Below, one piece after another: positions 36,280 to 54,345 of a DNA stretch of 64,000 bases. Origin of the DNA: Ferrovibrio terrae. GTDB lineage: Bacteria > Pseudomonadota > Alphaproteobacteria > Ferrovibrionales > Ferrovibrionaceae. Numbering within the stretch: the first letter of the stretch is position 1; every line of letters starts with the position of its first letter. The position numbers and the translations under genes are program-made. The notes below the pieces were generated by a model, which made no database searches, was not told the DNA's origin, and was given only the letters and a program-made list of their open reading frames with translations. The stretch spans positions 4,004,001 through 4,068,000 of the forward strand of contig NZ_CP041636.1 of the NCBI RefSeq assembly GCF_007197755.1, read 5' to 3'.

Positions 36280-38925
<2,646 letters not shown>

Positions 38926-39130
38926 GGACTTCGCACCCCTGGTCGGTGGCGCCCGGCTGGACCGGGTCGCCTTGTCGTTTGCTGGTCAGATTGTCACGAG
39001 CCGGACCCCATCCGGCAAGCGACCTGTCTTAACGGTCTGCCCTTTCCCTGTCCAGCCGGCATGCGGCCAGTTAAGTCCTTGGTCGGATAGGGAATTGCCC
39101 GTAAATCGGCCGGCCCTGCCGGCCACCCTG

Positions 39131-39271
39131 TCCGATCTTCGCGCCGCTTCGCCCGTGTTCGCAGCGCTTCGCCAGTGTTCGTAGCGCTTCGCTGGTGTTC
39201 GTGGCGCTTCGCGCGTGTTCGCCAGCGTTCGTACGGCTTCGTGGCGGTTCGCTGGTGTTCGGACGGCTTCG
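39131..39271. repeat. Phased TTCG array, 14 steps of exactly 10 bp
   Basis: Fourteen consecutive 10-bp blocks each end in TTC followed by G, so TTCG recurs at exact 10-bp spacing from 39138 to 39271. The tetramer is preceded alternately by GC (GCTTCG) or GT (GTTCG), so a 20-bp unit of the form GCTTCGCnnGTGTTCGnnGC is also seen in the first five blocks. Ten is not a multiple of three, so the period is a property of DNA or RNA and not of a protein. Function unknown. Confidence 0.85.
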
Positions 39272-39342
39272 CCGCCGGAACCGCCGGCCCGGCAACGGGC
39301 CAACAGGAACATTTAGGGTCCGGACGGTCACATTCAAGGGAC

Positions 39343-39375
39343 AAAAAAACCCGGTATCGCGCGAGCGATACCGGG
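39343..39375 (-). terminator. recA terminator, second
   Basis: Perfect 11-bp stem CCCGGTATCGC/GCGATACCGGG with a 4-nt loop. On the minus strand it is followed by seven T. It is about 180 bp past the recA stop. It shares the flanking CCATGGAGGAGA with the first terminator. Confidence 0.85.
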
Positions 39376-39458
39376 GTCCATGGAGGAGAGAACTTCTCCC
39401 CTGCCAGATAGCGCCCGGCGGCCGGAAGGCAACCGGGTTCCGGAGCCGAAGGAGGCAA

Positions 39459-39492
39459 AAAATAACCCCGGCAGCGAGGTCCGCTGCCGGGG
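39459..39492 (-). terminator. recA terminator, first
   Basis: Perfect 11-bp stem CCCCGGCAGCG/CGCTGCCGGGG with a 5-nt loop; on the minus strand a TTATTTTTT tract follows. It is about 65 bp past the recA stop and is preceded (minus strand) by TTCTCCTCCATGG, which also precedes the second terminator. Confidence 0.87.
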
Positions 39493-39557
39493 CTTTGCCC
39501 ATGGAGGAGAATAACTCAGGCGCCGTGGTTTACCGGCGTTGAGCGGGGCGAAACTGT

Positions 39558-40631
39558 TTACTCGGCGTCCTCCGCCTCGCCCGCATCCGGGCCGGCGTCG
39601 ATGGCGGCCGCGACGATGCCGGTGTTGGCCTTGATCGCGGCTTCGATACGATTGGCAACCTCAGGGTTTTCCTTGAGGAAGGTCTTGGCAGCCTCGCGGC
39701 CCTGGCCGATGCGCTGGCTGTCGAACGAGAGCCAGGAGCCCGACTTCTCGACCACATTGGCCTTCACGCCGAGGTCGATCAGTTCGCCGGTCTTGGACAC
39801 GCCCTCGCCATACATGATGTCGAAATCGACCACCTTGAACGGGGGCGCCACCTTGTTCTTGACCACCTTCACGCGGGTCTGGTTGCCGACCACCTCGTCG
39901 CGGATCTTGATCGCGCCGATGCGGCGGATATCGAGACGGACCGAGGCATAGAACTTCAGCGCATTGCCGCCGGTGGTGGTTTCCGGGCTGCCGAACATCA
40001 CGCCGATCTTCATGCGGATCTGGTTGATGAAGATGACCATGCAGTTCGACTTGGAGATCGAGGCGGTCAGCTTGCGCAAAGCCTGGCTCATCAGGCGGGC
40101 CTGCAGGCCGACATGGGTGTCGCCCATCTCGCCTTCGAGTTCGGCCTGCGGCACCAGGGCGGCGACCGAGTCGATGACCAGCACGTCGATGGCGCCCGAG
40201 CGGACCAGGGTATCGGCGATTTCCAGCGCCTGCTCACCGGTATCGGGCTGCGAGATCAGCAGCTCTTCGATATTCACACCGAGCTTGCGGGCATAGGACG
40301 GGTCGAGCGCATGTTCGGCGTCGACGAAGGCGCAGGTGCCGCCCTTCTTCTGGGCCTCGGCCACGACATGCAGCGCGATGGTGGTCTTGCCCGAGCTTTC
40401 CGGACCGTAGACTTCAACGATACGGCCCTTGGGCAGGCCGCCGATCCCCAGCGCGATATCCAGGCCGAGCGAGCCGGTGGAAATGGCTTCGACTTCCATG
40501 CTCTGGCGCTGGCCGAGCTTCATCACCGAGCCCTTGCCGAAATTGCGCTCGATCTGCGAGAGCGCAGCTTCCAGAGCCTTACCCTTATCCATGTTCTCTT
40601 TTTCCACGACGCGAAGTGAGGGGGACGACAT
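39558..40631 (-). CDS. recA: DNA recombinase RecA
   Basis: A 357-residue recombinase. Walker A is GPESSGKTT, Walker B ends in [11 protein letters not shown]1 is [19 protein letters not shown] and L2 is [22 protein letters not shown]. The C-terminal tail is acidic ([11 protein letters not shown]). The start at 40631 ([24 protein letters not shown]) has AAAGGA 9 bases upstream; [11 protein letters not shown] at 40592 is the other candidate. It polymerises on ssDNA, drives strand exchange and stimulates LexA self-cleavage. A near-consensus SOS box lies 62 bp upstream. Confidence 0.97.
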
Positions 40632-40989
40632 TTGCGAGCATCCTTTCATGGGGGCCGGTGAATTGCAATTATACGCCGTTCTGACCCCATATGTTCTCAT
40701 ATCGTTGCCGTTGTCCAGCGAAAAATATGCCCCTCTGTATGTGCCTGATATTTATGGAATATTCCCCTGATGTTCTCATAAGACCGCCGCCCCGTTCCGG
40801 TCTGTTCGGCAGCAGGCGATTCTCTGGCGGCCAGGCTTACGATGCCTCTGCCTGGCCGGTCTGTCGGCCCAAACCCGGTCTTTTGAACGGATAAGAAGGT
40901 GCGATTTCGCCATATCATGGCGAAGCATCAAAGCCAATACATCCAGAAGTAATGCCGCGACTCGGTCAGGCCGGGCGGTTGGACGGTGC
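40632..40989. other. 358-bp gap between recA and the giant repeat gene
   Basis: Holds the recA promoter region, including the candidate SOS box, an AT-rich patch near 40725-40770, and two small hairpins: GGCCAGGC/GCCTGGCC (40829-40857) and TTCGCCAT/ATGGCGAA (40906-40924). Neither hairpin is followed by a T-run, so neither is a convincing terminator for the repeat gene, although one may serve. No gene seen. Confidence 0.65.
40693..40707. promoter_or_regulatory. Candidate LexA (SOS) box of recA
   Basis: GTTCTCATATCGTTG on the plus strand, i.e. CAAC-N7-GAAC on the recA strand. The alphaproteobacterial LexA box is the direct repeat GTTC-N7-GTTC (GAAC-N7-GAAC); 7 of 8 fixed bases match. It lies 62 bp upstream of the recA start. 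lexA itself is not in the window. Confidence 0.45.
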
Positions 40990-43900
40990 TCAGAGCACCC
41001 GCAGCCAAGCCCAGTACTGCCACCACTGCATGGCGCCGACCTGCTGCTGCGTGAAGGCATTCGCCTGCGCGGAGCTGAGGCCGAGGATGTCGCCGACGCC
41101 GAGACCGCTGATCGCGGTGGTCGAGATCGCGGCGATCTGCGAGGTCGTGAAGGCCTGGATCTGCGTGCGGTACAGCTCGTTCACGTCGGTCGAGCGCAGG
41201 CCGGCGATCTGGGTGGTGCTCAACGCCAACACCTGCGACGAGGTCAGCGCGCGCGCCTGGGTGCCGCTCAGCGCATTCAGGTTGGTGGTGCTGAGCGTCT
41301 GCAGCTGCGACGTGGTCAGCGCGGCGACCTGGTCCGTATCCAGTTCGCCGATATCGGTGGTGCGCAGGTTGGCGATCTGCGACGAGGTCAGGGCGGCGAT
41401 CTGCGAATTGGCCAGCGCCTGCACCTGCGTGGTGTTCAGCGCGTTGAAGTTGGTGCTGCCGAGCGCCTGGATCTGCGCCGTGGTCAGCGCCTGCACCTGC
41501 GCGGTGCCGAACTCGCCGATATCCGAGGTACGCAGGCCGGCGATCTGCGTCGAGGTCAGCGCCGCCACCTGCGTGGAGGCCAGCGCCTGGATCTGCGTCG
41601 TGGTCAGGGCATTCAGGTTGGTGGTGCTGAAGGACGCGATCTGCGTCGTCGTCAGGCCGCGCACCTGGTTCGTGCCCAGTTCGGCGATGTCGCCGGTGCC
41701 CAGACCGGCCAGCTGCGTCGTGGTCAGCGCCGCGATCTGCGACGTGGTCAGGGCAGCGACCTGCGTGGCCAGCAGCGCATTGAAGTTGGTGGTGCCGAGC
41801 GCCTGGATCTGCGCCGTGGTCAGCGCCTGGATCTGGCTGGTGCTCAGCTCGGCAATATCGGTGGTGCGCAGCCCGGCGATCTGCGTGGTGGTCAGCGCCT
41901 GGATCTGCGCGCTGCCCAGCGCGCGGGTCTGCGTCGTGCTGAAGGCATTCAGGTCGCCGGTTTCAAGCGCGGCCACCTGCGTGGCGGTCAGTGCGCCGAT
42001 CTGCGAGGTGCCCAGCGCGCCGATCTGCGCCGTGGTCAGGGCGGCGATCTGCGTGGTGCCGAGTTCGGCGATGTCGCTGGTGCGGAGCGCGGCGATCTGC
42101 GCGGTGGTCAGCGCCGCGACCTGATCGGCGGACAGCGCCTGCACCTGCGTGGTGGAGAGCGCGTTCAGGTTGGTGGTGCTGAAGGCCTGCAGCTGGGTGG
42201 CAGTGAGCGCGCGGATCTGCGCGGTGCCCAGTTCGGCAATGTCGGTGGTACGCAGACCGGCGATCTGCGTGGTGGTCAGCGCCTGCACCTGTGCCGAGCC
42301 CAGCGCCTGCACCTGCGCGGTATTCAGCGCCTGCACGTTGGTGGTGTTGAGCGCCTGAACCTGCGCCGTGGTCAGCGCGGCAATCTGCGACGTCGTCAGT
42401 TCGCCGATCTCGGTGGTGCGCAGGCCGGCGATCTGCGTCGTGGTCAGGGCCTGGATCTGCGCGGTCGACAGCGCCTGCACCTGCGCGGTCGAGAAGGTGT
42501 TCAGGTTGGTGCTGCTCAGCGCCTGCACCTGCGCTGTCGTCAGCGCGGCAATCTGCGTGGTGCTGAATTCACCGATCTCGGTGGTACGGAGCCCGGCGAT
42601 CTGGCTGGTGGTCAGCGCCTGGATCTGACTGGTGGTCAGCGCCGCAACCTGGTTGCCGTTCAGGGCGTTCAGCGCCGTGCTGGTCAGCGCCGCGATCTGC
42701 GTGGTGGCCAGCGCCGCCACATCCGTCGGCGTCAGCGCGCCGACCTGGGTGGCGTTCAGCGTGCCGATCTGCGCGGTGGTCAGCGCACGCAGCTGCGTCG
42801 TGGTCAGTTCGTCGATGTCGGTGGTGCGCAGGCCCGCGATCTGGCTGGTGGTGAGCGCCGCGATCTGCGTGGTGCCGAGCGCCTGGGCCTGCGTGGTGTT
42901 GAACGCATTCAGGTTGCCGCTGCCCAGCGCCTGCACCTGCGCCGAGGTCAGCGCGGCGATCTGCCCGGTGGTCAGCTCAGCAATATCTGTGGTGCGGAGC
43001 CCGGCGACCTGCGTCGTGGTCAGGGCCTGGATCTGCGTCGCACCCAGCGCCTGGGTCTGCGTCGTGCTCAGCGCGTTCAGGTTGGCGGTGCCGAGCGCCT
43101 GTACCTGCGCCGTGGTCAGCGCCGCGATCTGGCTGCTGGCCAGTTCGGCGATATCGGTGGTGCGCAGACCGGCAATCTGCGTCGTGGTCAGCGCGGCGAT
43201 CTGCGAGGTGCCCAGCGCCTGCGTCTGGCTCGTCGAGAAGGCGTTCAGCGCCGAGCTGCTGAAGGCTGCGACCTGTGCCGGCGACAGTGCCGCGATGTCG
43301 GCCGTGCTCAGCGCGCCGACCTGGGTCGCATTCAGCGTGCCGATCTGCGTGGCGGTCAGCGCGGCAATCTGCGACGTCGTCAGTTCGGCGATGTCGGTGG
43401 TGCGCAGGCCCGCGATCTGGCTGGTGGTGAGCGCCGCGATCTGCGCGGTGCCCAGCGCCTGGGTCTGCGCCGTGGTCAGCGCATTCAGGTTGGTGGTGCT
43501 GAGCGCCTGCGCCTGCACGGTCGTCAGCGCGGCGATCTGCGAGGTGGTCAGCTCGCCGATCTCGGTGGTGCGCAGGCCCGCGATTTGCGCCGTGGTCAGG
43601 GCTGCGATCTGCGTCGCACCCAGCGCCTGGGTCTGCGCCGTGGTCAGCGCATTCAGGTTCGTGGTGCCGAGCGCCTGCACCTGCGCCGTGGTCAGCGCCG
43701 CGATCTGCGTGGTGGTCAGTTCGGCGATATCGGTGGTGCGCAGATTGGCGATCTGCGTGTTGGTCAGCGCGCCGATCTGCGACGTGGTCAGCGCCTGCGC
43801 CTGCGTCTGGGTCAGCGCGTTCAGGTTCGTGGTGCCGAGCGCCTGCAGCTGCGTGGCGGTCAGCGCCGAGACCTGGTCGGTATCGAGTTCGCCGATATCG

Positions 43901-46900
43901 GTGGTGCGCAGGCCCGCGATCTGGCTGGTGGTGAGCGCCGCGATCTGCTCAGCCGACAGCGTCTGCACCTGGGTCTGGTTCAGGCCATTCAGGGCCGAGG
44001 TGGTCAGCGCGGCGATCTGCGTGCCGGCCAGCGCCGACAGCGCCGCGGTGCTCAGGCCGCCGACCTGGGCCTCGGACAGCGCGCCGATCTGCGTGGTGGT
44101 CAGCGCGCGCAGCTGCGTCGTGGTCAATTCGGCGATATCGGTGCCGCGCAGGCCGGCAATCTGCGTGTTGGTCAGCGCGCCGATCTGCGCGGAGGTCAGC
44201 GCCTGCGCCTGCGTCGTGTTGAAGGCATTCAGGCTGGTGGTGCTGAGCGCGCGGATCTGCGTGGTGGTCAGCGCCGCGACCTGGTCGGGCGTCAGTTCGG
44301 CAATATCAGTGGTGCGCAGGCCGGCGATCTGGCCTGTGGTCAGCGCGCCGATCTGCGCGGAGGTCAGCGCCTGCGCCTGCGTCTGGCTCAGCGCGTTCAG
44401 GTTACTGGTGCCGAGCGCCTGCACCTGCGCCGTGGTCAGTGCAGCAACCTGCTCGGCGCTCAGTTCGGCGATGTCCGTGGTGCGCAGGCCGGCGATCTGG
44501 CTGGTGGTCAGCGCGGCAATCTGCGACGTGCTCAACGCGGCGGCCTGCGTGGCCGACAGCGCGTTGAGGTTGGCGGTGCCGAGCGCCTGCAGCTGCGTGG
44601 CGGTCAGCGCCGAGATCTGGTCGGTGTCGAGTTCGCCGATATCGGTGGCGCGCAGGCTGGCAATCTGCGTCGTGGTCAGCGCGCCGATCTGTTCGGCCGA
44701 CAGCGCCTGTACCTGGTCCGTCGTCAGCGCATTCAGCGCCGAGGTGGTCAGCGCCGCGATCTGCGTGCCCGCCAGCGCCGACAGTGCCGTGGTGCTCAGC
44801 GCACCGACCTGCGTTTCGTTCAGCGTGCCGATCTGCGCGGCGGTCAGTGCCGCGATCTGTGTCTCGGTCAGTTCTTCGATATCGGTGGCGCGCAGGCCGG
44901 CGATCTGTCCGGTGGTCAGCGCCTGGATCTGGCTGGTGGCCAGCGCCTGCGCCTGCGTCGTGTCGAAGGCATTCAGGTTGGCCGTGCCCAGCGCCTGCAC
45001 CTGCACCGTGGTCAGCGCGGCGATCTGGTCGGCGCTCAGTTCGCCGATATCCCCGGTGCGCAGCGCACCGATCTGCGTGGTGGTCAGGGCGGCAATCTGG
45101 CTGCCGGCCAGGGCCTGGATCTGGCTGGTCTCCAGCGCATTCAGCGCGGTGGTGGTGAGCGCGGCCAGCTGCGTGCCGGTCAGGCCGGAAACCTGATCCG
45201 GACTCAGCGCGCCGACCTGGGTCTCATTCAGCGTGCCGACCTGCGACGTGGTCAGGCCAGCGAGCTGCGTCGCGCCCAGTTCGGCGATATCGGTGACGCG
45301 CAGGCCGGCGATCTGCGTCGTGGTCAGCGCGGCAACCTGATCCGAGCTCAGTGCCTGCGCCTGGGTGGTGGCGAAGGCGTTCAGCGCGGTGGTGCTCAGC
45401 GCGCGCAGCTGCGACCCGGTCAGGGCGGCAACCTGCTGCGTGGACAGCGCGGCGATCTGGGTTTCGTCCAGCGCGCCGATCTGCGTGGCGGTCAGCGCGG
45501 CGATCTGGCTGGTGCCCAGTTCGGCGATATCTTCGGCGCGCAGGCCGGCAATCTGGCTCGTGCTCAGCGCGGCGACCTGGTCGGCCGTCAGAGCCTGCAC
45601 CTGCGCGGTGGTCAGCGCCTGAATCTGCGCCGTGGTCAGTTCGCCGAGATCTGTGTTGCGTAGCCCGGTGATCTGCGTCGTGGTCAACGCGGCGACCTGG
45701 CTGGTCGAGAGCGCCTGCGCCTGCGAGGTGCTGAACGCATTCAGCGCCGTGGTGCTGAGCGCCTGCAGCTGCGTGCTGGTCAGCCCGCTGATAGCGCTGG
45801 TGCTGAGCGCGCCGATCTGCGTGGCGGTCAGCCCGCCGATCTGCCCCGCGCCGAGTTCGGCGATGTCGCTGGCGCGCAGGCCCGTGATCTGCGTGGTGGT
45901 GAGCGCGGCGACCTGTTCCGAAGTCAGCGCCTGCGCCTGCGAGGTATTGAACGCATTCAGCGCTGTGGTGCTGAGTGCTGCAATCTGCGTCGTGGTCAGC
46001 GCCGCGATCGCCTCCGGGCTCAGCCCGGCAATCTGGGTGTCGGTCAGCGCGCCGATTTGCGCCGTGGTCAGGGCGCGCAGCTGCGTGGTGCCGAATTCGG
46101 CAATATCATCGGCGCGCAGGCTGGCGATCTGCGTACCGCTCAGCGCCTGCACCTGCTCGGCCGTCAGGGCCTGCACCTGCGCCGCAGTGAGCGCCTGCAC
46201 CTGCGCCGTATCCAGCTCACCGATATCGCCGGTGCGCAGGCCCGCGATCTGCGTGGCGGTCAGCGCCGCGATCTGGTCGGTACCCAGCGCCTGGGTCTGC
46301 GTGGTCGACAGGGCATTCAGCGCCGTGGTGCTGAGGGCGGCGACCTGCGTGGTGGCCAGCGCCGCCAGATCGGCGGTGTCGAAAGCGCCGACCTGCGTGG
46401 CGGTCAGCGCGCCGATCTGGCTGCTGCCGAGTTCGGCGATGTCGCCGGCGCGCAGACCATCGATCTGCGTGTTGGTCAGCGCCGCGACCTGCTCGGTGGT
46501 CAGCGCCCGCGCCTGCGACGTATTGAATGCATTCAGGGCCGCGGTGCTGAGCGCCGCGATCTGCGAGGTGGTCAGCGCGGCAATGGCGGTCGTGCTCAGG
46601 CCGGCGATCTGGGTTTCGTCGAGCGAGCCGATCTGCGTCGTGGTCAGCGCGCGCAGCTGCGTGGTGCTGAGTTCGGCGAGATCGCTGGCGCGCAGGCCAT
46701 CGATCTGCGTGCCGGTCAGCGCCTGCAGCTGGGTTGCCGCCAGTGACTGCGCCTGCGTGGTCGACAGCGCATTCAGCGCCGTGGTGCTGAGCGCCGCGAT
46801 CTGGCTGGTGCTGAGCGCCGCCAGCGCCGTGGTGGTGAGGCCGGAAATCTGGGTTCCGGTCAGCGCGCCGACCTGGGTGGTGGTCAGCGCGCGGATCTGC

Positions 46901-49900
46901 GTGGCGCCCAGTTCGGCGATATCGCCGGCGCGCAGGCCATCGACCTGCGTCGCGGTCAGCGCCTGCACCTGCGCGGTGGTCAGCGACTGGACCTGTGTGG
47001 TCGACAGTGCATTCACGGCCGAGGTGCTGAGCGCCGCGATCTGGCTCGGGCTGAGGGCGGCAAGCGCCGTCGTGGTGAGGCCGGAAACCTGGGTTTCGGT
47101 GAGCGCGGCGACCTGCGTCGTGGTCAGCGCCTGGATCTGCGAGGCACCGAACTCGGCGATATCCGTCGTACGCAGGCCGGCAATCTGCGTGGTGGTCAGC
47201 GACTGGACCTGCGCGGTCGACAGCACCTGCACCTGAGTGGCGGTCAACGCCTGCACCTGCGCGGTGCCAAGCTCGCCGAGATCGCCCGGCTGCAGGCCGG
47301 CGATCTGCGTATTGGTCAGCGCGGCAATCTGGCTCGAGGTCAGTGCCTGCGCCTGCGTCGTATTGAAGGCATTCAGGTTGGTGGTGCTGAGCGCGGCCAC
47401 CTGCGTGGTGGACAGCGCGGCAATCGCCGTGGTGCTCAGGGCGCCGATCTGTGTCGTGGTCAGCGCGTCGATCTGCGACGTGCTGAGCGCCTTGATCTGC
47501 GTCGCCGTCAGGGCGCCGATCGCGTCGGCATCCAGCGCGCCGATCTGCGTCGGCGTCAGCGCGCCAATCTGTGTCGTGGTCAGCGCCTGCACCTGCGTGG
47601 TGTTCAGCGCATTCAGAACCGTGGTGGTCAGCGCGCCGACCTGCGTGGTGTTCAGCGCCGCCAGAGCTGCCGTGCCGAGGCCGCTGGCCTGGGTTCCCGT
47701 CAGCGCACCAACCTGCGCGGTAGACAGGCCGCCGAGATCGACCGGCTCAAGCGCCGCGACCTGCGTGGCGGTCAGGCCCGCGATCTGCGTGGTGGTCAGT
47801 TCGCCAAGATCGGTGGAGCGCAGGCCGGTGATCTGCGTTGAGGTCAGGCCGGCGATCTGCGACGTGCTCAGCGCCTGAATCTGGCCCTGGTTCAGCGCGT
47901 TCAGCGCAGAGGTGGTCAACGCGCCGAGCTGCGTGGACGAGAAGGCCGACAGCGCCGTCGTGGTCAGGCTGCCGACCTGGGTCTCGTTCAGGGCCGCGAT
48001 CTGCGTGGTGGTCAGCGCCTTGACCTGCTCCGTGGTCAGTTCGGCGAAAGCAGCGGTGCCGAGCGCATTGCGCTGCGCCGTGGTCATCGCCTTGAGCTGC
48101 GCCGCCGTGAGGTTATTCACCTGCGTGGAATTGAAGCCGCCCAGCTGGGTCAGGCTCAGCACCTTTACCTGCTGGGCAGTGAGCGACTGGAGCTGCCCGG
48201 CATTCAGCGCGTTAATATCGGCAATCTCGAGCGCGGCGACCTGCGTCGTTGCCAGCGCCTTGATCTGCGTCACCGTGAACTCGCCGATATCGCTGGTCCG
48301 CAGGTCGATGACCTGCGCGATGCTCAGCGCCTTGATCTGCGGGATGGCCAGCGACTGGACCTGCGCCGTGGTCAGCGCGTTCAGATTCGTTGAGGTCAGG
48401 CCGCGAATCTGCGTTGACGTCAGGGCTTTGACCTGCGCTGTGCTCAGCTCGCCAATATCGCCGGTCGTCAGGGACGCAAGCTGCGACGACGTCAGGGCCC
48501 GGATCTGCCGCACCTGCAGCGCCTGCGTCTGCGCCGTGGTCAGCGCATTCAGATTCGTGGTGCTGAGCGCCTGCAACTGCGTCGACGTGAATCCCTTGAT
48601 CTGCGTCGCGCTCAATTCAGCGATATCTGTCGTACGCAGGCCCGCGATCTGCGTGGCCGTCAGTGCCCCAAACAGCGGGCCGGTCAGCGCCTGGATCTGG
48701 GCCTCATTGAAGGCGTTCAGATTGGTCGTGGTCAGGGCGCGCAGCTGGGTCTTCGTCAGCGACTTGACGCGTGACGCGCTCAGTTCGCTGATATCTTCGC
48801 TGCGCAGGCTGGCAATCTGGGCCGTGGTCAGCGCGCCGAGCTGCGAAGCGGCGAACGCCTGCATCTGCGTGGTATTGAGCGCATTCAGGTTGGTGGTGGT
48901 CAGGGCTTGCAGCTGCGTGCCGGCGAACGCCTTGAGTTGCGTGACGGTCAGCTCGGCGATGTCGGTGGTCCGCAGGTTGGCGATCTGCGTCGATGTCAGG
49001 GCCTTCGCCTGGGCCCCGGTCAGCGCCCCGGTCTGGGTCGCGTCCAGCGCATTCAGGTTGGTCGTGCTGAGCGACTTCACCTGGGTGGCCGTCAATCCGG
49101 CAATGGCCGAGGCGGTCAGCGCCCGGATCTGGGTCTGTGTGAATTCTCCGAGCTGGCCTGGCGTTAAGCCCTTCGCCTGCGTCGCATTCAGGGTTCCGAT
49201 CGCCGTCGTGGTCAGGGCCTGGATCTGCGTCTCGGTCAAAGCGCGGATCTGGTTCGAATTCAGCGCCTGGATCTGCGCCGTGCCGAATGCATTCAGATCT
49301 GTGGTTTCAAGCGCCGCGACCTGTCCGGTGGTCAGCCCCTTGATCTGCGTCGCCGTGAGTTCTGAAATATCAGCAGTGGCGAATGACGCAATCTGCGTGT
49401 TGCTGAGCGCGGCAATCTGATTGCCGGTCAGCACCCGGACCTGGGCTGCGTTGAAGGCGTTCAGGTTCGTCGTGGTCAGGGCGCCCAGTTGCGCCGACGA
49501 CAGCGCCTTGACCTGCGACGAGGTCAGCTCGCCGATGTCAGCGACATTCAACGCCGAAATCTGCGTCGTGGTCAGTGAGCGGATCTGTCCCGGATCCAGC
49601 GCCTGCACCTGCGCAGTGCTGAGCGCATTCAGGCTGGTGGTCGACAGGTACTGCAGCTGGACCGGCGACAGCGCCTTGACCTGCGCCGTGGTCAATTCGC
49701 CGACATCCGCCGCCCGCAGGCCGGCAATCTGCGTCGTGCTCAGGACAGAAATCTGCTTGGGCGTCAGCGACTGGATCTGGGCCGTGTCGAGCGCATTCAG
49801 GTTGCTGGTGCTGAGCGCCTGCAACTGCGTGGGAAGCAGAGCCTTCAGCTGGGTTGTACCCAACTCGGCGATATCCGTGGTTCGCAGGCCAGCAATCTGC

Positions 49901-50670
49901 GTCTCGCTCAGCGCGGCAAACTGGCCGGCCGAGAGCACCCGTATCTGCGTCGTGTCGAGCGCATTCAGGTTGCTGATGCTGAACGCTTTCAGCTGGGCGC
50001 CGGACAATGCGGCGATTGCCGCGCTGCTCAGTTCGCCGACCTGGGCCTCATTCAATTGCGCGATATGGCTGCTGCTCAGTCCGCGCGCCTGCGTCGCATT
50101 CAGGGCCCCGACCAGCGTCGTGTTCAGCGCCTTGACCTGCGCTGTGCTCAAGCCGCTGATCTGAGTGGCCGCCAGCGCCTGAAACTGCGCGGTGCTGAAC
50201 GCATTCAGGTCCGTGGTCTCAAACGCCGCGATCTGCGTGCTGGACAGGCCCTTGATCTGCGTAACGGTCAGCTCGGCAATGTCGCTCGACCGCAGGCCGG
50301 CAATCTGCGTGTTGGTCAGCGCCTTGATCTGCGTGGCCTTGAGCGCGCCCATCTGCGCAGAGTCGAGGTAAGTGATATTGGTCCCCAGCGCCTGCAGCTG
50401 CGAACCGGACAGAACCGAAAGCTGTGAGGCGTCGAAGACAAGCTGCGACGTGGTGAAATAGCCCAGTTGGGTGGGCGTGAGCGCCTTGATCTGCGCGCTC
50501 TTCAGCGCGTCGATCTGCGTCGTGTCGAGTGATGCAATGGCTTGCTGCGACAGCGCGGCGATCTGCGTCGACTTGAGCGACTGGATATCAGACGTGGTGA
50601 GGTCGTCGATCGCCGAGGCCGTCAGGCCTGCGATTTGTCCTGCTGAATAGGAGCTGACACTCGAAACCAC
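40990..50670 (-). CDS. Giant octapeptide-repeat protein, 3226 residues
   Basis: One uninterrupted frame, no recognised domain. After MVSSVSSY nearly the whole chain is 8-residue units of the form [S/T/x]-[T/S/A/P/E]-x-[Q/D/N]-[I/V/L]-x-[A/G/E]-[L/F], such as TTTQIAAL, RTTDIAEL, STTNLNAL. Irregularity is limited to about residues 65-102, where two units have seven residues. From residue 103 to 3214 the span is exactly 389 x 8. The chain ends QWWQYWAWLRVL, holding the only tryptophans I can find; I see no cysteine. There is no signal peptide, membrane segment, RTX repeat or LPxTG. The start is GTG (GGGG 9-12 bases upstream). Adhesin, ruler, scaffold or secreted polymer are all open; function is not known. 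It lies 237 bp downstream of cckA, same strand. Confidence 0.9.
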   Translation of the reverse strand: MVSSVSSYSAGQIAGLTASAIDDLTTSDIQSLKSTQIAALSQQAIASLDTTQIDALKSAQIKALTPTQLGYFTTSQLVFDASQLSVLSGSQLQALGTNITYLDSAQMGALKATQIKALTNTQIAGLRSSDIAELTVTQIKGLSSTQIAAFETTDLNAFSTAQFQALAATQISGLSTAQVKALNTTLVGALNATQARGLSSSHIAQLNEAQVGELSSAAIAALSGAQLKAFSISNLNALDTTQIRVLSAGQFAALSETQIAGLRTTDIAELGTTQLKALLPTQLQALSTSNLNALDTAQIQSLTPKQISVLSTTQIAGLRAADVGELTTAQVKALSPVQLQYLSTTSLNALSTAQVQALDPGQIRSLTTTQISALNVADIGELTSSQVKALSSAQLGALTTTNLNAFNAAQVRVLTGNQIAALSNTQIASFATADISELTATQIKGLTTGQVAALETTDLNAFGTAQIQALNSNQIRALTETQIQALTTTAIGTLNATQAKGLTPGQLGEFTQTQIRALTASAIAGLTATQVKSLSTTNLNALDATQTGALTGAQAKALTSTQIANLRTTDIAELTVTQLKAFAGTQLQALTTTNLNALNTTQMQAFAASQLGALTTAQIASLRSEDISELSASRVKSLTKTQLRALTTTNLNAFNEAQIQALTGPLFGALTATQIAGLRTTDIAELSATQIKGFTSTQLQALSTTNLNALTTAQTQALQVRQIRALTSSQLASLTTGDIGELSTAQVKALTSTQIRGLTSTNLNALTTAQVQSLAIPQIKALSIAQVIDLRTSDIGEFTVTQIKALATTQVAALEIADINALNAGQLQSLTAQQVKVLSLTQLGGFNSTQVNNLTAAQLKAMTTAQRNALGTAAFAELTTEQVKALTTTQIAALNETQVGSLTTTALSAFSSTQLGALTTSALNALNQGQIQALSTSQIAGLTSTQITGLRSTDLGELTTTQIAGLTATQVAALEPVDLGGLSTAQVGALTGTQASGLGTAALAALNTTQVGALTTTVLNALNTTQVQALTTTQIGALTPTQIGALDADAIGALTATQIKALSTSQIDALTTTQIGALSTTAIAALSTTQVAALSTTNLNAFNTTQAQALTSSQIAALTNTQIAGLQPGDLGELGTAQVQALTATQVQVLSTAQVQSLTTTQIAGLRTTDIAEFGASQIQALTTTQVAALTETQVSGLTTTALAALSPSQIAALSTSAVNALSTTQVQSLTTAQVQALTATQVDGLRAGDIAELGATQIRALTTTQVGALTGTQISGLTTTALAALSTSQIAALSTTALNALSTTQAQSLAATQLQALTGTQIDGLRASDLAELSTTQLRALTTTQIGSLDETQIAGLSTTAIAALTTSQIAALSTAALNAFNTSQARALTTEQVAALTNTQIDGLRAGDIAELGSSQIGALTATQVGAFDTADLAALATTQVAALSTTALNALSTTQTQALGTDQIAALTATQIAGLRTGDIGELDTAQVQALTAAQVQALTAEQVQALSGTQIASLRADDIAEFGTTQLRALTTAQIGALTDTQIAGLSPEAIAALTTTQIAALSTTALNAFNTSQAQALTSEQVAALTTTQITGLRASDIAELGAGQIGGLTATQIGALSTSAISGLTSTQLQALSTTALNAFSTSQAQALSTSQVAALTTTQITGLRNTDLGELTTAQIQALTTAQVQALTADQVAALSTSQIAGLRAEDIAELGTSQIAALTATQIGALDETQIAALSTQQVAALTGSQLRALSTTALNAFATTQAQALSSDQVAALTTTQIAGLRVTDIAELGATQLAGLTTSQVGTLNETQVGALSPDQVSGLTGTQLAALTTTALNALETSQIQALAGSQIAALTTTQIGALRTGDIGELSADQIAALTTVQVQALGTANLNAFDTTQAQALATSQIQALTTGQIAGLRATDIEELTETQIAALTAAQIGTLNETQVGALSTTALSALAGTQIAALTTSALNALTTDQVQALSAEQIGALTTTQIASLRATDIGELDTDQISALTATQLQALGTANLNALSATQAAALSTSQIAALTTSQIAGLRTTDIAELSAEQVAALTTAQVQALGTSNLNALSQTQAQALTSAQIGALTTGQIAGLRTTDIAELTPDQVAALTTTQIRALSTTSLNAFNTTQAQALTSAQIGALTNTQIAGLRGTDIAELTTTQLRALTTTQIGALSEAQVGGLSTAALSALAGTQIAALTTSALNGLNQTQVQTLSAEQIAALTTSQIAGLRTTDIGELDTDQVSALTATQLQALGTTNLNALTQTQAQALTTSQIGALTNTQIANLRTTDIAELTTTQIAALTTAQVQALGTTNLNALTTAQTQALGATQIAALTTAQIAGLRTTEIGELTTSQIAALTTVQAQALSTTNLNALTTAQTQALGTAQIAALTTSQIAGLRTTDIAELTTSQIAALTATQIGTLNATQVGALSTADIAALSPAQVAAFSSSALNAFSTSQTQALGTSQIAALTTTQIAGLRTTDIAELASSQIAALTTAQVQALGTANLNALSTTQTQALGATQIQALTTTQVAGLRTTDIAELTTGQIAALTSAQVQALGSGNLNAFNTTQAQALGTTQIAALTTSQIAGLRTTDIDELTTTQLRALTTAQIGTLNATQVGALTPTDVAALATTQIAALTSTALNALNGNQVAALTTSQIQALTTSQIAGLRTTEIGEFSTTQIAALTTAQVQALSSTNLNTFSTAQVQALSTAQIQALTTTQIAGLRTTEIGELTTSQIAALTTAQVQALNTTNVQALNTAQVQALGSAQVQALTTTQIAGLRTTDIAELGTAQIRALTATQLQAFSTTNLNALSTTQVQALSADQVAALTTAQIAALRTSDIAELGTTQIAALTTAQIGALGTSQIGALTATQVAALETGDLNAFSTTQTRALGSAQIQALTTTQIAGLRTTDIAELSTSQIQALTTAQIQALGTTNFNALLATQVAALTTSQIAALTTTQLAGLGTGDIAELGTNQVRGLTTTQIASFSTTNLNALTTTQIQALASTQVAALTSTQIAGLRTSDIGEFGTAQVQALTTAQIQALGSTNFNALNTTQVQALANSQIAALTSSQIANLRTTDIGELDTDQVAALTTSQLQTLSTTNLNALSGTQARALTSSQVLALSTTQIAGLRSTDVNELYRTQIQAFTTSQIAAISTTAISGLGVGDILGLSSAQANAFTQQQVGAMQWWQYWAWLRVL
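41029..50646 (-). repeat. 24-bp tandem array with 168- and 240-bp super-repeats
   Basis: The coding array of the giant gene. The 24-bp unit reads on the plus strand much like GATCTGCGTGGTGGTCAGCG plus four variable bases. Units group into blocks marked by the variant RTTDIAEL (or R-T/A-x-D-I-x-E-L): mostly 7 units (56 residues, 168 bp), and in the middle and later parts also 10 units (80 residues, 240 bp), which add a TTAxxAL/AGTQIAAL/TTSALNAL insert. Repeats are most alike at DNA level in the middle and weaker near both ends. Because 24 is a multiple of three, all six frames tend to stay open through the array. Confidence 0.9.
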
Positions 50671-50798
50671 CGAAGCGTCCCCAAACCCTCAAGCCAGCCG
50701 ATGCCGTGTGGGCATCGACTCGAGCCTGCCTTTCGCCGCAACCCTACGACGATTCTGCCGGGCCGGAGCTTCGCATTAAAACCGGGTGAAAACCAATG

Positions 50799-50823
50799 AA
50801 TTCCTTGGAGTTTCCAAGAAATT
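50799..50823. promoter_or_regulatory. Dyad upstream of the giant gene
   Basis: Interrupted palindrome AATT-c-CTTGGA-gtt-TCCAAG-a-AATT: ten of eleven arm positions pair. It lies about 130 bp upstream of the GTG start, in the cckA-giant gap, in a locally AT-rich patch. It could be an operator for the repeat gene or an RNA hairpin downstream of cckA. Confidence 0.45.
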
Positions 50824-50906
50824 AGGCAATCAGTCCGGGTGCGGCCGTTAACCGGTTGGCACTCGCGGTGCGATTATAGATTATGGGGGCAACTATTGGC
50901 GGTTTT

Positions 50907-53225
50907 TCAGGCAGTCCCGTCCATGACTTCCTTCACTTTGCCGGCCAGCTGGGCGAGCGAGAATGGCTTGGGCAGGAAGTTCACATCGGCCGATTTCGCC
51001 ATATTGTTGCGCAAGCTGTCTTCGGCGTAACCGGAGATAAACAGGATTTTCAGGTCGGGCCGGCGGCTGCGCAACTGGGCGGCCAGGGTCGGACCGTCCA
51101 GATTGGGCATCACGACGTCGGAGATCAGCAGTTCGACCCGGTCGAGCTGCTCGGGTGGCAAGGCGAGCGCCTGCTCGCCCGATGCTGCCTCGATGACTGT
51201 ATAGCCCTTGTTGCGCAGCGCCCGGGCGGCGAAAGCACGCACGGCATCCTCATCTTCCACCAGCAGCACCAGGCCCTGGCCGGTCAGGTCGCGGCTGTCG
51301 GGCCGGGCATCTTCGCGGCCGGCGGGAAGCTCCTCGGCGTTCGGACGGTGGCGCGGCAGGTAGAGGCGGAAACAGGCGCCCTCGCCCGGCTCGCTCTCGA
51401 CATGGATGAAACCGCCGGTCTGCTTGATGATGCCGTAGACGGTCGAGAGCCCCAGTCCGGTACCGGCACCAACAGCCTTGGTGGTGAAGAAGGGATCGAA
51501 AATCTTGGCCATGTTTTCCGGTGCGATGCCGTGGCCGGTATCGGTCACCTCGATCGCCACATAGTCGCCGGCTGGAATGATTTCGGCGCCCAGCTGGGTC
51601 GGCTGCGCGACCGAATGATTGAGCGTGCGGATTTTCAGTTCGCCGCCATCGGCCATGGCGTCACGCGCATTCACCGCCAGATTGATGATCACCTGCTCGA
51701 GCTGACCCTGATCGACCTTGACCAGGCCAAGGTCACGGCCATGCACCATTTTCAGCGTGATGGTCTCGCCGATCAGGCGGCCGATCAGGTTGCGCAGGTC
51801 CGCCAGCACATCCGTGATGTCGAGCACCTTGGGCACCAGCGTCTGCTGGCGCGAGAAGGCCAGCAGCTGGCGCACCAGATTGGCGGCGCGGCTGGCATTC
51901 TGCTTGATCTGCATGATGTCGGCAAACGACTGGTCGCCCGGCTGGTGCCGTTGCAGCAGCAGGTCGCAGAAACCGATCATCGCGGTGAGCAGATTGTTGA
52001 AGTCATGCGCGATGCCGCCGGCGAGCTGGCCGACCGCCTGCATCTTCTGGCTCTGATGGAACTGGGTCTGCAGGCTGCGCTGGTCCGTGGTGTCGACCAG
52101 ATAGACCAGTTGCGCCGACTGGCCATCCTCGCGTTCGGCCGAAGACGCGGCAAAGACCTCGACGACGCGCTCGCGCGGGCCGTCAAGCCGCACTTCCAGC
52201 GCACGGCTGAAGATCTCGCCGCGCCGCAGCGCCACCAGATGACGCGCCAGCGCCAGCGCATCTTCCTCGCGCACCATCGCGGCAAGCCGCTGGCCGAGCC
52301 AGTCGTCGCGGCCGCAGAGCTGGGCGAAGGCGGCATTGGCTTCACGGATCGTGCCGGCGGAATCCAGCACCAGAATGCCGATCGGCGCCTGGTCGAAGAA
52401 GCGGCGGAACTCGGCTTCCACCGGACGCAGCGTGCCGCGCTGGCGCAACTCGAGCCCAAGATCATGCACCACCGCGCTGTAGCGCAGCGGATTGCCATCG
52501 ACATCGGGCACCACGGTCTGGCTGACGCTGACCAGCCGCAGCCGTGCGGGATGATCCGGTTCGGTGTCTTCGGCCGGCAGTGGCCGCAGCTTCGCCTCGC
52601 CGCCCGGCCAGTCGGGCGTCATGGTCTCGTTCTCGCGCGCCTCGCCGTGGCTCAGCACATCGGACAGCAGCAGGTCGCTGCCGACCAGCTGTTCCGGCAC
52701 GCCGCCGAGCCAGGCCGCAAAGGTGCGGTTGGCAAACAGGAAGCGGCCATCCGGCGCCACCGAATAGAGGCCGACCGGCGCATTGTCGATGAAGGCCGCG
52801 AGTTCGTCGCGCTGCTGACGCACGGCCACCAAAGCAGCGGCATTGTCGGCCACTTCCTGGATATCCCAGATCACCCAGTTGCGGCCGCCCGACACCGATC
52901 CCGGCGCCTGCATCGCGGTGACTCGCAGCGAGACCACGCCGGTCGCGGTATGGATGGCGATGTCTTCCTGCACGGCCCTGCCGAGCGGCAACAGGCTTTG
53001 CAGCCGCGCGATGATCTCGGCGTTGCCGATCTCGCGGCCCAGCAGCACATCCGGAGCATGGCCGCCTTCGTTGCCCAGCCGCGCGGCCAGCACGCGATAG
53101 GCCGTGTTGTCCGCAAGCAGCTGGTGGCCGCGGGTGATGGCGCGCGCAAAGGGGCTCGCCTCGGCCAGCATCCAGGCGGCGCGACGGCGCGGCGATCCGA
53201 TCAGCGAGGCGAAGCTCAGCGCCAT
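50907..53225 (-). CDS. cckA: Hybrid sensor histidine kinase, CckA type
   Basis: A 772-residue kinase: PAS domain near residues 138-250 ([21 protein letters not shown]), a second near 270-380 ([20 protein letters not shown]), HisKA with the phospho-accepting H407 in [19 protein letters not shown], an ATPase domain with [10 protein letters not shown] (N box) and [20 protein letters not shown], and a receiver with the Asp in [16 protein letters not shown] and a lysine in [29 protein letters not shown] is the CckA signature. It controls CtrA through ChpT and so links cell cycle, motility and, in some species, gene transfer. I see no transmembrane segments at the N-terminus, unlike textbook CckA. 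It starts 7 bp after flhB. Confidence 0.9.
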
Positions 53226-53232
53226 GACTGCA

Positions 53233-54345
53233 TCACTCTTCAGCCGTCTCTATCGTCGCAACCTTGGGTTCGTATTTGCTCTGGATGCCGTCCTTCAGTT
53301 TCATGATGTAGGAAATCACCTCGGCGACAGCGCGGAAATGTTCGACCGGAATTTCCTGCTCCAGATCCACCTTGTAGAGCGCGCGCGCCAGCGGCGGGTT
53401 CTCCACGATCGGGATGTCATGCTTGGTGGCGAGCTCGCGGATACGGAAGGCGATGTTGTCGGCGCCCTTGGCCACGACAATCGGCGCTTCGGACTGGCCC
53501 TGCTCGTATTTCAGCGCCACCGCAAAGTGGGTCGGGTTGGTGACGATCACGCTGGCCTTCGGCACGGCTGTCATCATGCGCTGGCGCGCACGCTGCATGC
53601 GCAACTGGCGCAGGCGCGCCTTGATATGCGGGTCGCCTTCGATCTCCTTGTACTCTTCCTTGACCTCCTGCTTGGTCATGCGGAGATTCTTCATGTAGTT
53701 AAAGCGCTGATACAGGTAGTCGGCAGCAGCGACGACGAACATGATGCCGAGCAGCGCGCCGACCACCTTGGCGACGATCTTGAGGCAGAGCGGCAGAACG
53801 ACGCTCAGATCGAGATCGATCAGGACTTCCAGCTCATCGAGTTCGGGGATCAGGATGGTGAGCAGGATGCCGCCGATCACCGATATCTTGATCATGTTCT
53901 TGACGAACTCGACAAAGTTCTGCATGCCGAACATACGCTTGAGGCCGGCCATCGGCGATAGCTTCGCGAAATCCGGCTTGATCTTCTCAAGGCTGACATG
54001 AAACGGATTCTGCAGCAGGCTGGCGGCCACGCTGGCCAGCACGAACAGCCCGATGATCGGCGAGAGCGCCAGTGCGATATTCATGGATACGTCGACGGCG
54101 ATGCGGGCCAGTTGGCTGGGATCGACCGGGATCAGATGCGGCTGGGCGAAGAACATCGTGGTGGAGTTGACCACCCGGCTGCCGAGCGAATCCGCCAGCA
54201 TCCAAAGCGATATACTGGCCGCCAGGAAGGTGAACCAGTAGCCGATTTCCATCGACTTGGCGACGTTGCCCTTGTCGGCGGCATCCTGCAGCCGTTTCCC
54301 GGAAGCGTCTTCGGTTTTGGATTCTGGGTCAGCGTCTTCCGACAT
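53233..54345 (-). CDS. flhB: Flagellar export switch protein FlhB
   Basis: A 370-residue inner-membrane part of the flagellar type III export gate. Four hydrophobic segments lie within residues 30-215, and the cytoplasmic domain has the self-cleavage motif N270-P-T-H in VIVTNPTHFAVALKYE. It controls the switch from rod/hook to filament substrates. Tail: SKYEPKVATIETAEE. It lies directly downstream of fliR (10 bp) and is followed by cckA, in one likely operon. Confidence 0.96.
   Translation of the reverse strand: MSEDADPESKTEDASGKRLQDAADKGNVAKSMEIGYWFTFLAASISLWMLADSLGSRVVNSTTMFFAQPHLIPVDPSQLARIAVDVSMNIALALSPIIGLFVLASVAASLLQNPFHVSLEKIKPDFAKLSPMAGLKRMFGMQNFVEFVKNMIKISVIGGILLTILIPELDELEVLIDLDLSVVLPLCLKIVAKVVGALLGIMFVVAAADYLYQRFNYMKNLRMTKQEVKEEYKEIEGDPHIKARLRQLRMQRARQRMMTAVPKASVIVTNPTHFAVALKYEQGQSEAPIVVAKGADNIAFRIRELATKHDIPIVENPPLARALYKVDLEQEIPVEHFRAVAEVISYIMKLKDGIQSKYEPKVATIETAEE

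Follow-up and report, generated by a model that had tools for sequence, protein, structure and literature searches.

A giant ALTTAQ-repeat protein of Ferrovibrio predicted to fold as an alpha-helical screw

The giant gene and its octads

The window analysed here is a stretch of 64,000 nucleotides from Ferrovibrio terrae, and its features of interest are collected in Table 1. On the minus strand the order of genes is FliR, FlhB, a hybrid histidine kinase that we take to be CckA, the giant gene and RecA, the first three being identified by Pfam and RecA by reading. The giant frame starts with GTG and runs through 3226 codons (9.7 kb) without an internal stop, which bears out the single intact frame of the original prediction. 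Its product contains no cysteine and carries a net charge of -77. No Rfam family was found at the gathering threshold over positions 38900-53300.

Table 1. Features of the locus, in window coordinates
Feature	Position	Strand	Remark
RecA gene, downstream neighbour	39558..40700	-	named by reading
Giant ALTTAQ-repeat (PF20080) protein gene	40990..50670	-	3226 aa
C-terminal end (QANAFTQQQVGAMQWWQYWAWLRVL), candidate C-terminal cap or export signal	40993..41100	-	function inferred
389 in-register octads, residues 103-3214	41029..50364	-	superperiod ~3.41 octads
N-terminal 102 residues, octads with one-residue slips (LGYFTTSQLVFDASQ)	50365..50670	-	similar stretch in Ferrovibrio paralogs
Inverted repeat, terminator-like, weak, between cckA and the giant gene	50799..50823	-	1 site in region, against a shuffle mean of 4.3
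CckA-like hybrid histidine kinase gene, upstream neighbour	50907..53225	-	Pfam domains

Residues 103 to 3214 consist of exactly 389 octads in an unbroken register, as had been predicted. The octad had also been called near-perfect, and in this respect only the register holds: it is perfect, while the unit is imperfect, with the strict consensus [ST]xxQ[IV]xAL matched by 83 of the 389 octads and a relaxed consensus by 376. In terms of single positions, position 8 is L in 351 octads, F in 35, M in 2 and I in 1, position 5 is I, V or L in 353, and position 4 is Q in 276 and D in 50. Positions 1-3 of these octads hold 759 serines or threonines. Octads are also present on the N-terminal side of residue 103, where one-residue slips occur near residues 77-100. 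At the other end, the C-terminal pattern is similar across 14 aligned C-termini, and both the Q and the A of its QxxA motif are invariant (14/14).

On the plus strand, the region of the giant gene (window positions 40952-50164) holds several antisense open frames, of 390-854 aa. These are probably a by-product of the GC-rich repeat.

The GC content of the giant gene is 0.53 at codon position 2 and 0.89 at codon position 3. Compared with three orthologs (L047, L049 and L048), dN/dS is 0.25, 0.37 and 0.41 over the aligned gene, values that are approximate since the alignment was made over repeats, and 0.22-0.40 at the gene ends. These ratios point to purifying selection. The octad RTTDIAEL is found in 11 copies with 10 different DNA sequences, and no recurring 60-mer was found in the gene, which indicates that the pattern is kept by protein sequence and not by recent DNA duplication. 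By such sequence criteria the giant is a real protein, with a register held by selection at the protein level. As to the concern that the frame might not be translated, raised together with the original prediction, the dN/dS values (0.22-0.41) and the codon-position GC both speak for a real protein.

As for the position of the gene, the matched stretches of cckA and recA lie 156-247 bp apart in five Ferrovibrio genomes and 8.2-10.4 kb apart in four (G000, G001, G002 and G005), counting the nine genomes with both flanks; a tenth, G004, matched neither. With four of nine junctions filled and five tight, the giant is an accessory gene, inserted where the junction is conserved and otherwise tight. 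The proteins encoded between cckA and recA range from 2577 to 3313 aa, and this variation at the same junction leaves a length-setting role, one of the suggestions made earlier, without support.

Family membership and distribution

The giant had been thought to belong to no named domain family, which was wrong. Pfam PF20080 (ALTTAQ_rpt) matches it with 1773 bits in 117 stretches, against a gathering cut-off of 26.4 bits, and by this profile it is a member of the family. NCBIfam models gave no match, and the RTX family (glycine/aspartate-rich nonapeptide repeats) was absent from the Pfam scan.

Four other Pfam families scored above their own curated cut-offs, namely LRR_EndoS (91.5 bits), CAAP1 (78.6), Sigma70_r4_2 (40.1) and WH_Lhr (33.7), and Fibrinogen_BP, DUF378, DUF4351 and Gp5_trimer_C matched below theirs. 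All eight were rejected as matches of composition or periodicity, since only LRR_EndoS has one stretch that passes by itself, compared with 117 for ALTTAQ_rpt. Matches to leucine-rich repeat (LRR) proteins of the PDB were set aside on the same ground.

Two further giant ALTTAQ genes are found in the same genome, ~0.3 Mb from the one in the window. Beyond this genome, the octad was searched in other genomes, as the original prediction had advised, and was found both in relatives and on plasmids. Of 41 genomes, this one and 40 relatives, five have PF20080, all of them Ferrovibrio, a genus from which 10 genomes were searched. A sample of 385 genomes from the class, own genome included, gave six with PF20080, and among 14 control genomes it is found in one, Caulobacter vibrioides. 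The N-terminal 867 residues, used as query against 72,556 plasmid records, matched 59, mostly from Rhizobium, Shinella and Cereibacter (11 of the 59 from the latter); this number includes the lowest rows (Streptococcus, Staphylococcus, probably Spiroplasma and Polaromonas), which look like chance.

A second class of ALTTAQ proteins was observed in G191 (C1) and G057, at L110:14596 to L111:3665 and L114:15476 to L115:4551. These have 1689 and 1691 aa, with their own conserved N- and C-termini. The Pseudomonas plasmid protein L052 (L052:11485-19551) has a C-terminus unlike that of the family, with a separate domain in which EF-hand-like DxDxDG motifs were seen by eye; Pfam and NCBIfam gave no name to this domain.

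Predicted fold and superhelical period

Structure prediction of slices, another check advised at the start, was made with AF2 for the C-terminal 225 and the N-terminal 320 residues, on alignments of 7-8 rows. The C-terminal model (pLDDT 93.9, pTM 0.83) contains 26 helices of at least 4 residues and the N-terminal model (pLDDT 92.7, pTM 0.82) contains 38. Predicted helices mostly have 4-6 residues, approximately one per octad, and cover positions 2-7 or so, with positions 8 and 1 non-helical. Exceptions in the C-terminal model are a 14-residue helix at 159-172, where confidence dips, and the last helix, with 10 residues; in the N-terminal model there is a helix gap around residues 70-80.

No strand was found in either model. 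This bears on the beta-solenoid that the original prediction had kept as its rival, and on a protein of the ice-binding or ice-nucleation kind. Relatives in Cereibacter and Pseudomonas are annotated as “ICE nucleation protein” or “heme utilization protein”, which would suit such a reading. Against it, Pfam assigns ALTTAQ_rpt and the AF2 models are strand-free, for which reason we dropped both forms of it as highly improbable.

In a phmmer search of the PDB, the best match is 9zem, HeliScrew4 (E 1.4e-15), over 104 residues and in the same octad register. This alignment is register-ambiguous, with a mean posterior of 0.44, so the pairing of octad with octad is not fixed. To go by its name, 9zem is apparently the “tightly wound alpha-helical screw” that a preprint (Yang et al. 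2025, PMC12822642) reports as new and for which CD and crystallography gave confirmation. The giant and HeliScrew4 share an octad resembling [ST]xEQ[IVF]A[AR]L; HeliScrew4 is artificial and has 120 residues, whereas the giant is natural and has ~400 octads. Taken together, the AF2 models and the 9zem match support the capped short helices in a superhelix that had been proposed, and the fold is very probably an alpha-helical screw.

A Foldseek search had also been advised. For both models the first seven PDB rows are mesothelin (E 1.3e-5 to 3.1e-4), at a TM of 0.38-0.47 for the C-terminal and 0.23-0.34 for the N-terminal model, and 9zem is not among the best 50 of 420 and the best 50 of 565 matches, respectively. 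The viral library gave 7 matches at E <=0.001, with TM 0.12-0.26. These rows, and a relative of the second class (L110) that scores above the Pfam Mesothelin cut-off, would fit an ordinary ARM-like alpha-solenoid, acting as a binding partner or ligand platform and not as a screw rod. ARM units have ~40 residues, and the repeats of mesothelin and stereocilin are longer and irregular. The models of the giant have about one helix per 8 residues and their TM to mesothelin is just 0.23-0.47, which makes the ARM-like solenoid improbable. The mesothelin/stereocilin superhelix (PMC2628672) is the closest solved fold by Foldseek, but with low TM.

Torsion scans of the screw allow ~2.0-3.8 octads per turn. 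Compact solutions that bury positions 5 and 8 occur at 3.3-3.4 octads per turn, where they are left-handed, and also at 2.1-3.1; with solutions spread over several turns, the scan alone does not select the turn and was used only for an estimate of length. At 3.3-3.4 octads per turn the rise is ~2.5-2.7 A per octad.

The lags preferred in the octad autocorrelation of 17 ALTTAQ proteins are 7, 10, 14, 17, 20, 24, 27, 31, 34 and 38, the integers closest to multiples of ~3.41 octads. Considering the eight top lags of each protein, 102 of 136 fall on this set of multiples (11 among 40 lags), compared with ~37 expected if all lags were alike; the other 34 include 1, 2, 4, 21, 28, 30 and 36. In the periodograms, 16 of the 17 proteins have one of their four strongest peaks at 3.38-3.46 octads, and in 11 it is the strongest of all. 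Only Rhizobium CCGE532 (L051), in which a 17-octad repeat prevails, departs from this. The strongest peak is at 2.0 octads in Cereibacter, Niveispirillum and G286, and at ~2.4 in L051, L052 and L054, the latter fitting the aliased second harmonic of 3.41. The repeat was already known by its name, PF20080; the surface period of ~3.41 octads, seen in 16 of 17 family proteins, is new here.

Such a superperiod could be a mere trace of duplication in blocks of 7 and 3 octads, without structural meaning. Lags 7, 10, 17, 24 and 31 can all be built from these two numbers, recent copies of 17, 24 or 31 octads are present in several relatives, and 8 of the 11 proteins with 3.4 as strongest peak belong to one genus, Ferrovibrio. 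We consider this account unlikely. The lineages differ in their blocks (17, 24, 27, 31, 34), all of them drawn from the same set of multiples, and identical octads of the giant differ in DNA. Furthermore, after removal of near-identical octad pairs (more than 5 of 8 identities), 13 of the 17 proteins keep a peak at 3.30-3.55 above the 99% level of the shuffles, those that lose it being L051, L052, L053 (narrowly) and G286 (clearly), and the signal is absent at the core positions.

In the giant of the window the period is found on positions 1, 4, 6 and 7, weakly on 2 and 3, and core positions 5 and 8 do not show it, as expected if core sites are all equivalent and the outside has faces. R1, D4, E7, N4 and N6 are phase-coherent over the 389 octads at P ~3.41 (R 0.55-0.72, null 99% 0.36-0.55). 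G7 and “any charge” pass the null slightly, K/R6 passes but peaks at 3.474, and A4, Q6, G1, L5 and F8 are below the pass level along the 389 octads. At the periodogram value, P 3.43, the global coherence of the same features falls to 0.21-0.39, so the two estimates of the period differ a little.

We read the surface period of 3.41 octads as the superhelical turn, which would amount to ~27 residues per turn and ~118 turns for ~402 octads. Each octad would contribute one short helix at about positions 2-7, with its N-cap at position 1, and the I, V, L or F of positions 5 and 8 would be turned to the screw axis. The turns would follow each other in one continuous rod, which coarse modelling with the above rise puts at roughly 100 nm. 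Along it, octads with R1, D4 and E7 would be aligned on one face and those with N4 and N6 on another.

Linked genes and possible role

Neither a GT41 nor a type I exporter gene was found beside the giant of the window or its cckA-recA orthologs. The two same-genome paralogs have as neighbours a TPR-GT41 transferase, an NAD-dependent epimerase with 72% identity to an annotated UDP-glucuronic acid decarboxylase, and an FkbM methyltransferase, and a HlyD protein is encoded ~8 kb beyond these genes.

Among 15 chosen genomes, GT41 is found in 8 of 9 that are positive for ALTTAQ and in 5 of 6 that are negative; its presence is uninformative, being common without ALTTAQ, and closeness alone counts. 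GT41 lies within ~6 kb of an ALTTAQ gene in six of the nine (G000, G001, G002, G008, G191 and G286) and is unlinked in G005, G057 and G157, with the G005 copy, on C99, cut by the contig end. On plasmids, GT41 lies at a distance of 0.5-8.5 kb from the ALTTAQ match in at least 26 of the 59 records, and these 26 are spread over 8 genera. The hypergeometric value for this co-occurrence, 3e-60, ignores plasmid relatedness and is not used as a probability.

Fourteen plasmid loci were opened. GT41 is present at 11 (L050-L056, L127 and L131-L133) and absent from the flanks of the other three, L128-L130. Genes of type I secretion systems (T1SS) are in the flanks of six (L050, L052, L055, L056, L127 and L131) and were not found in those of the other eight. 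The exporter of L055 is HlyB-like, with 620 bits to TIGR01846, a score short of the curated 725.55, and its partner protein reaches the cut-off of TIGR01843 HlyD. In L052, from Pseudomonas, the ALTTAQ gene adjoins TolC, HlyD and ABC genes. Plasmid pA of Cereibacter sphaeroides 2.4.1 has a linked module with ALTTAQ, GT41 and HlyB-like ABC genes. By eye and unaligned, no conserved catalytic cysteine context was seen in the C39-like domains of four exporters. The best same-genome match to the ABC protein of the module, a HlyB-like frame with 40% identity, lies ~0.6 Mb from the giant of the window, between an RTX-like frame (L119:42-4858, by eye) and a HlyD gene of its own.

We propose that type I secretion would carry the ALTTAQ proteins out of the cell, the conserved C-terminus acting as their signal or else as a cap, and that the Ser/Thr-rich surface would be glycosylated in the cytoplasm by a GT41 transferase. 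Where the decarboxylase supplies UDP-xylose, the sugar attached would be expected to be a pentose. The outcome would be a stiff and long rod on the cell surface, decorated with sugars, that could serve in adhesion or in a matrix. A secreted surface rod is the fairly probable role of the family, and the fuller reading, a giant helical screw from a family of secreted and probably glycosylated surface rods, is slightly favoured. The “surface or scaffold” role suggested originally would be the likeliest. For the protein of the window itself, export and glycosylation are possible, on the doubtful side, as its own locus has no GT41 or type I exporter. A plausible candidate route is that it borrows the enzymes of its paralogs, which it resembles at both N- and C-terminal ends.

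The giant lies downstream of the FliR, FlhB and CckA-like genes and adjoins recA, and neither GT41 nor a type I exporter is among its neighbours; it could instead be the same helical screw kept inside the cell as a scaffold or spacer, for example in the flagellar or cell-pole region, neither exported nor glycosylated; the GT41 and T1SS genes would then serve the paralogs only. The second ALTTAQ class, in G191 (C1) and G057, has likewise no GT41 or type I exporter neighbour found, which fits this scenario. We hold it to be rather unlikely, as both ends of the giant are like those of GT41-adjoining paralogs and its 3226 residues contain zero cysteines. Its presence in only 4 of the 9 Ferrovibrio genomes with the junction also argues against a core part of the cell pole.

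The preferred reading, a secreted surface rod, brings the family near to the giant adhesins secreted by type I systems, such as LapA, BapA and the RTX adhesins. The likeness lies in great size, repetition and lack of cysteine, and in the HlyB/HlyD genes beside some ALTTAQ relatives. Those adhesins have beta or Ig-like domains, in contrast to the predicted helical octads of the giant, which has no RTX family, and the GT41 linkage of relatives sets the ALTTAQ family further apart. HMW1C belongs to the GT41 family. The HMW1/HMW1C system (PMC3012730) similarly pairs a transferase with a large surface protein; HMW1 uses two-partner secretion and is N-glycosylated, whereas ALTTAQ proteins are Ser/Thr-rich and T1SS-linked in some relatives.

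In the literature searched, no function or structure was found for PF20080, of which Pfam names only the repeat. Among the matches listed from the open PMC literature there is no paper on the ALTTAQ family, and a natural screw, a 3.41-octad surface period, a GT41/T1SS module or an insertion between cckA and recA was not met. The proteins may, as a still tentative proposal that falls just short of being favoured, represent a new class of surface fibre: natural giant screws of ~118 turns at 3.41 octads per turn, with one face charged and another rich in amides, exported by T1SS and O-glycosylated on a lattice of Ser/Thr by GT41 enzymes dedicated to them. If true, several proteobacterial lineages would hold natural counterparts of a fold presented as novel, with the turn of 3.41 octads predicted from sequence alone. 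The module, consisting of an ALTTAQ giant and GT41, joined in some lineages by HlyB/HlyD, UDP-glucuronate decarboxylase and FkbM methyltransferase, would then amount to a glycosylated surface fibre of a new kind, and very long rods for design could be drawn from it.

Lastly, two minor observations concern the GT41 genes and their surroundings. Three Ferrovibrio genomes that gave no match to ALTTAQ (G003, G007 and G006) have frames of 1775-2031 aa with tandem GT41 matches. Just past the FkbM gene beside one paralog there is a prophage-like stretch (L033:1-9986), with integrase-, capsid- and terminase-like frames recognised by eye.
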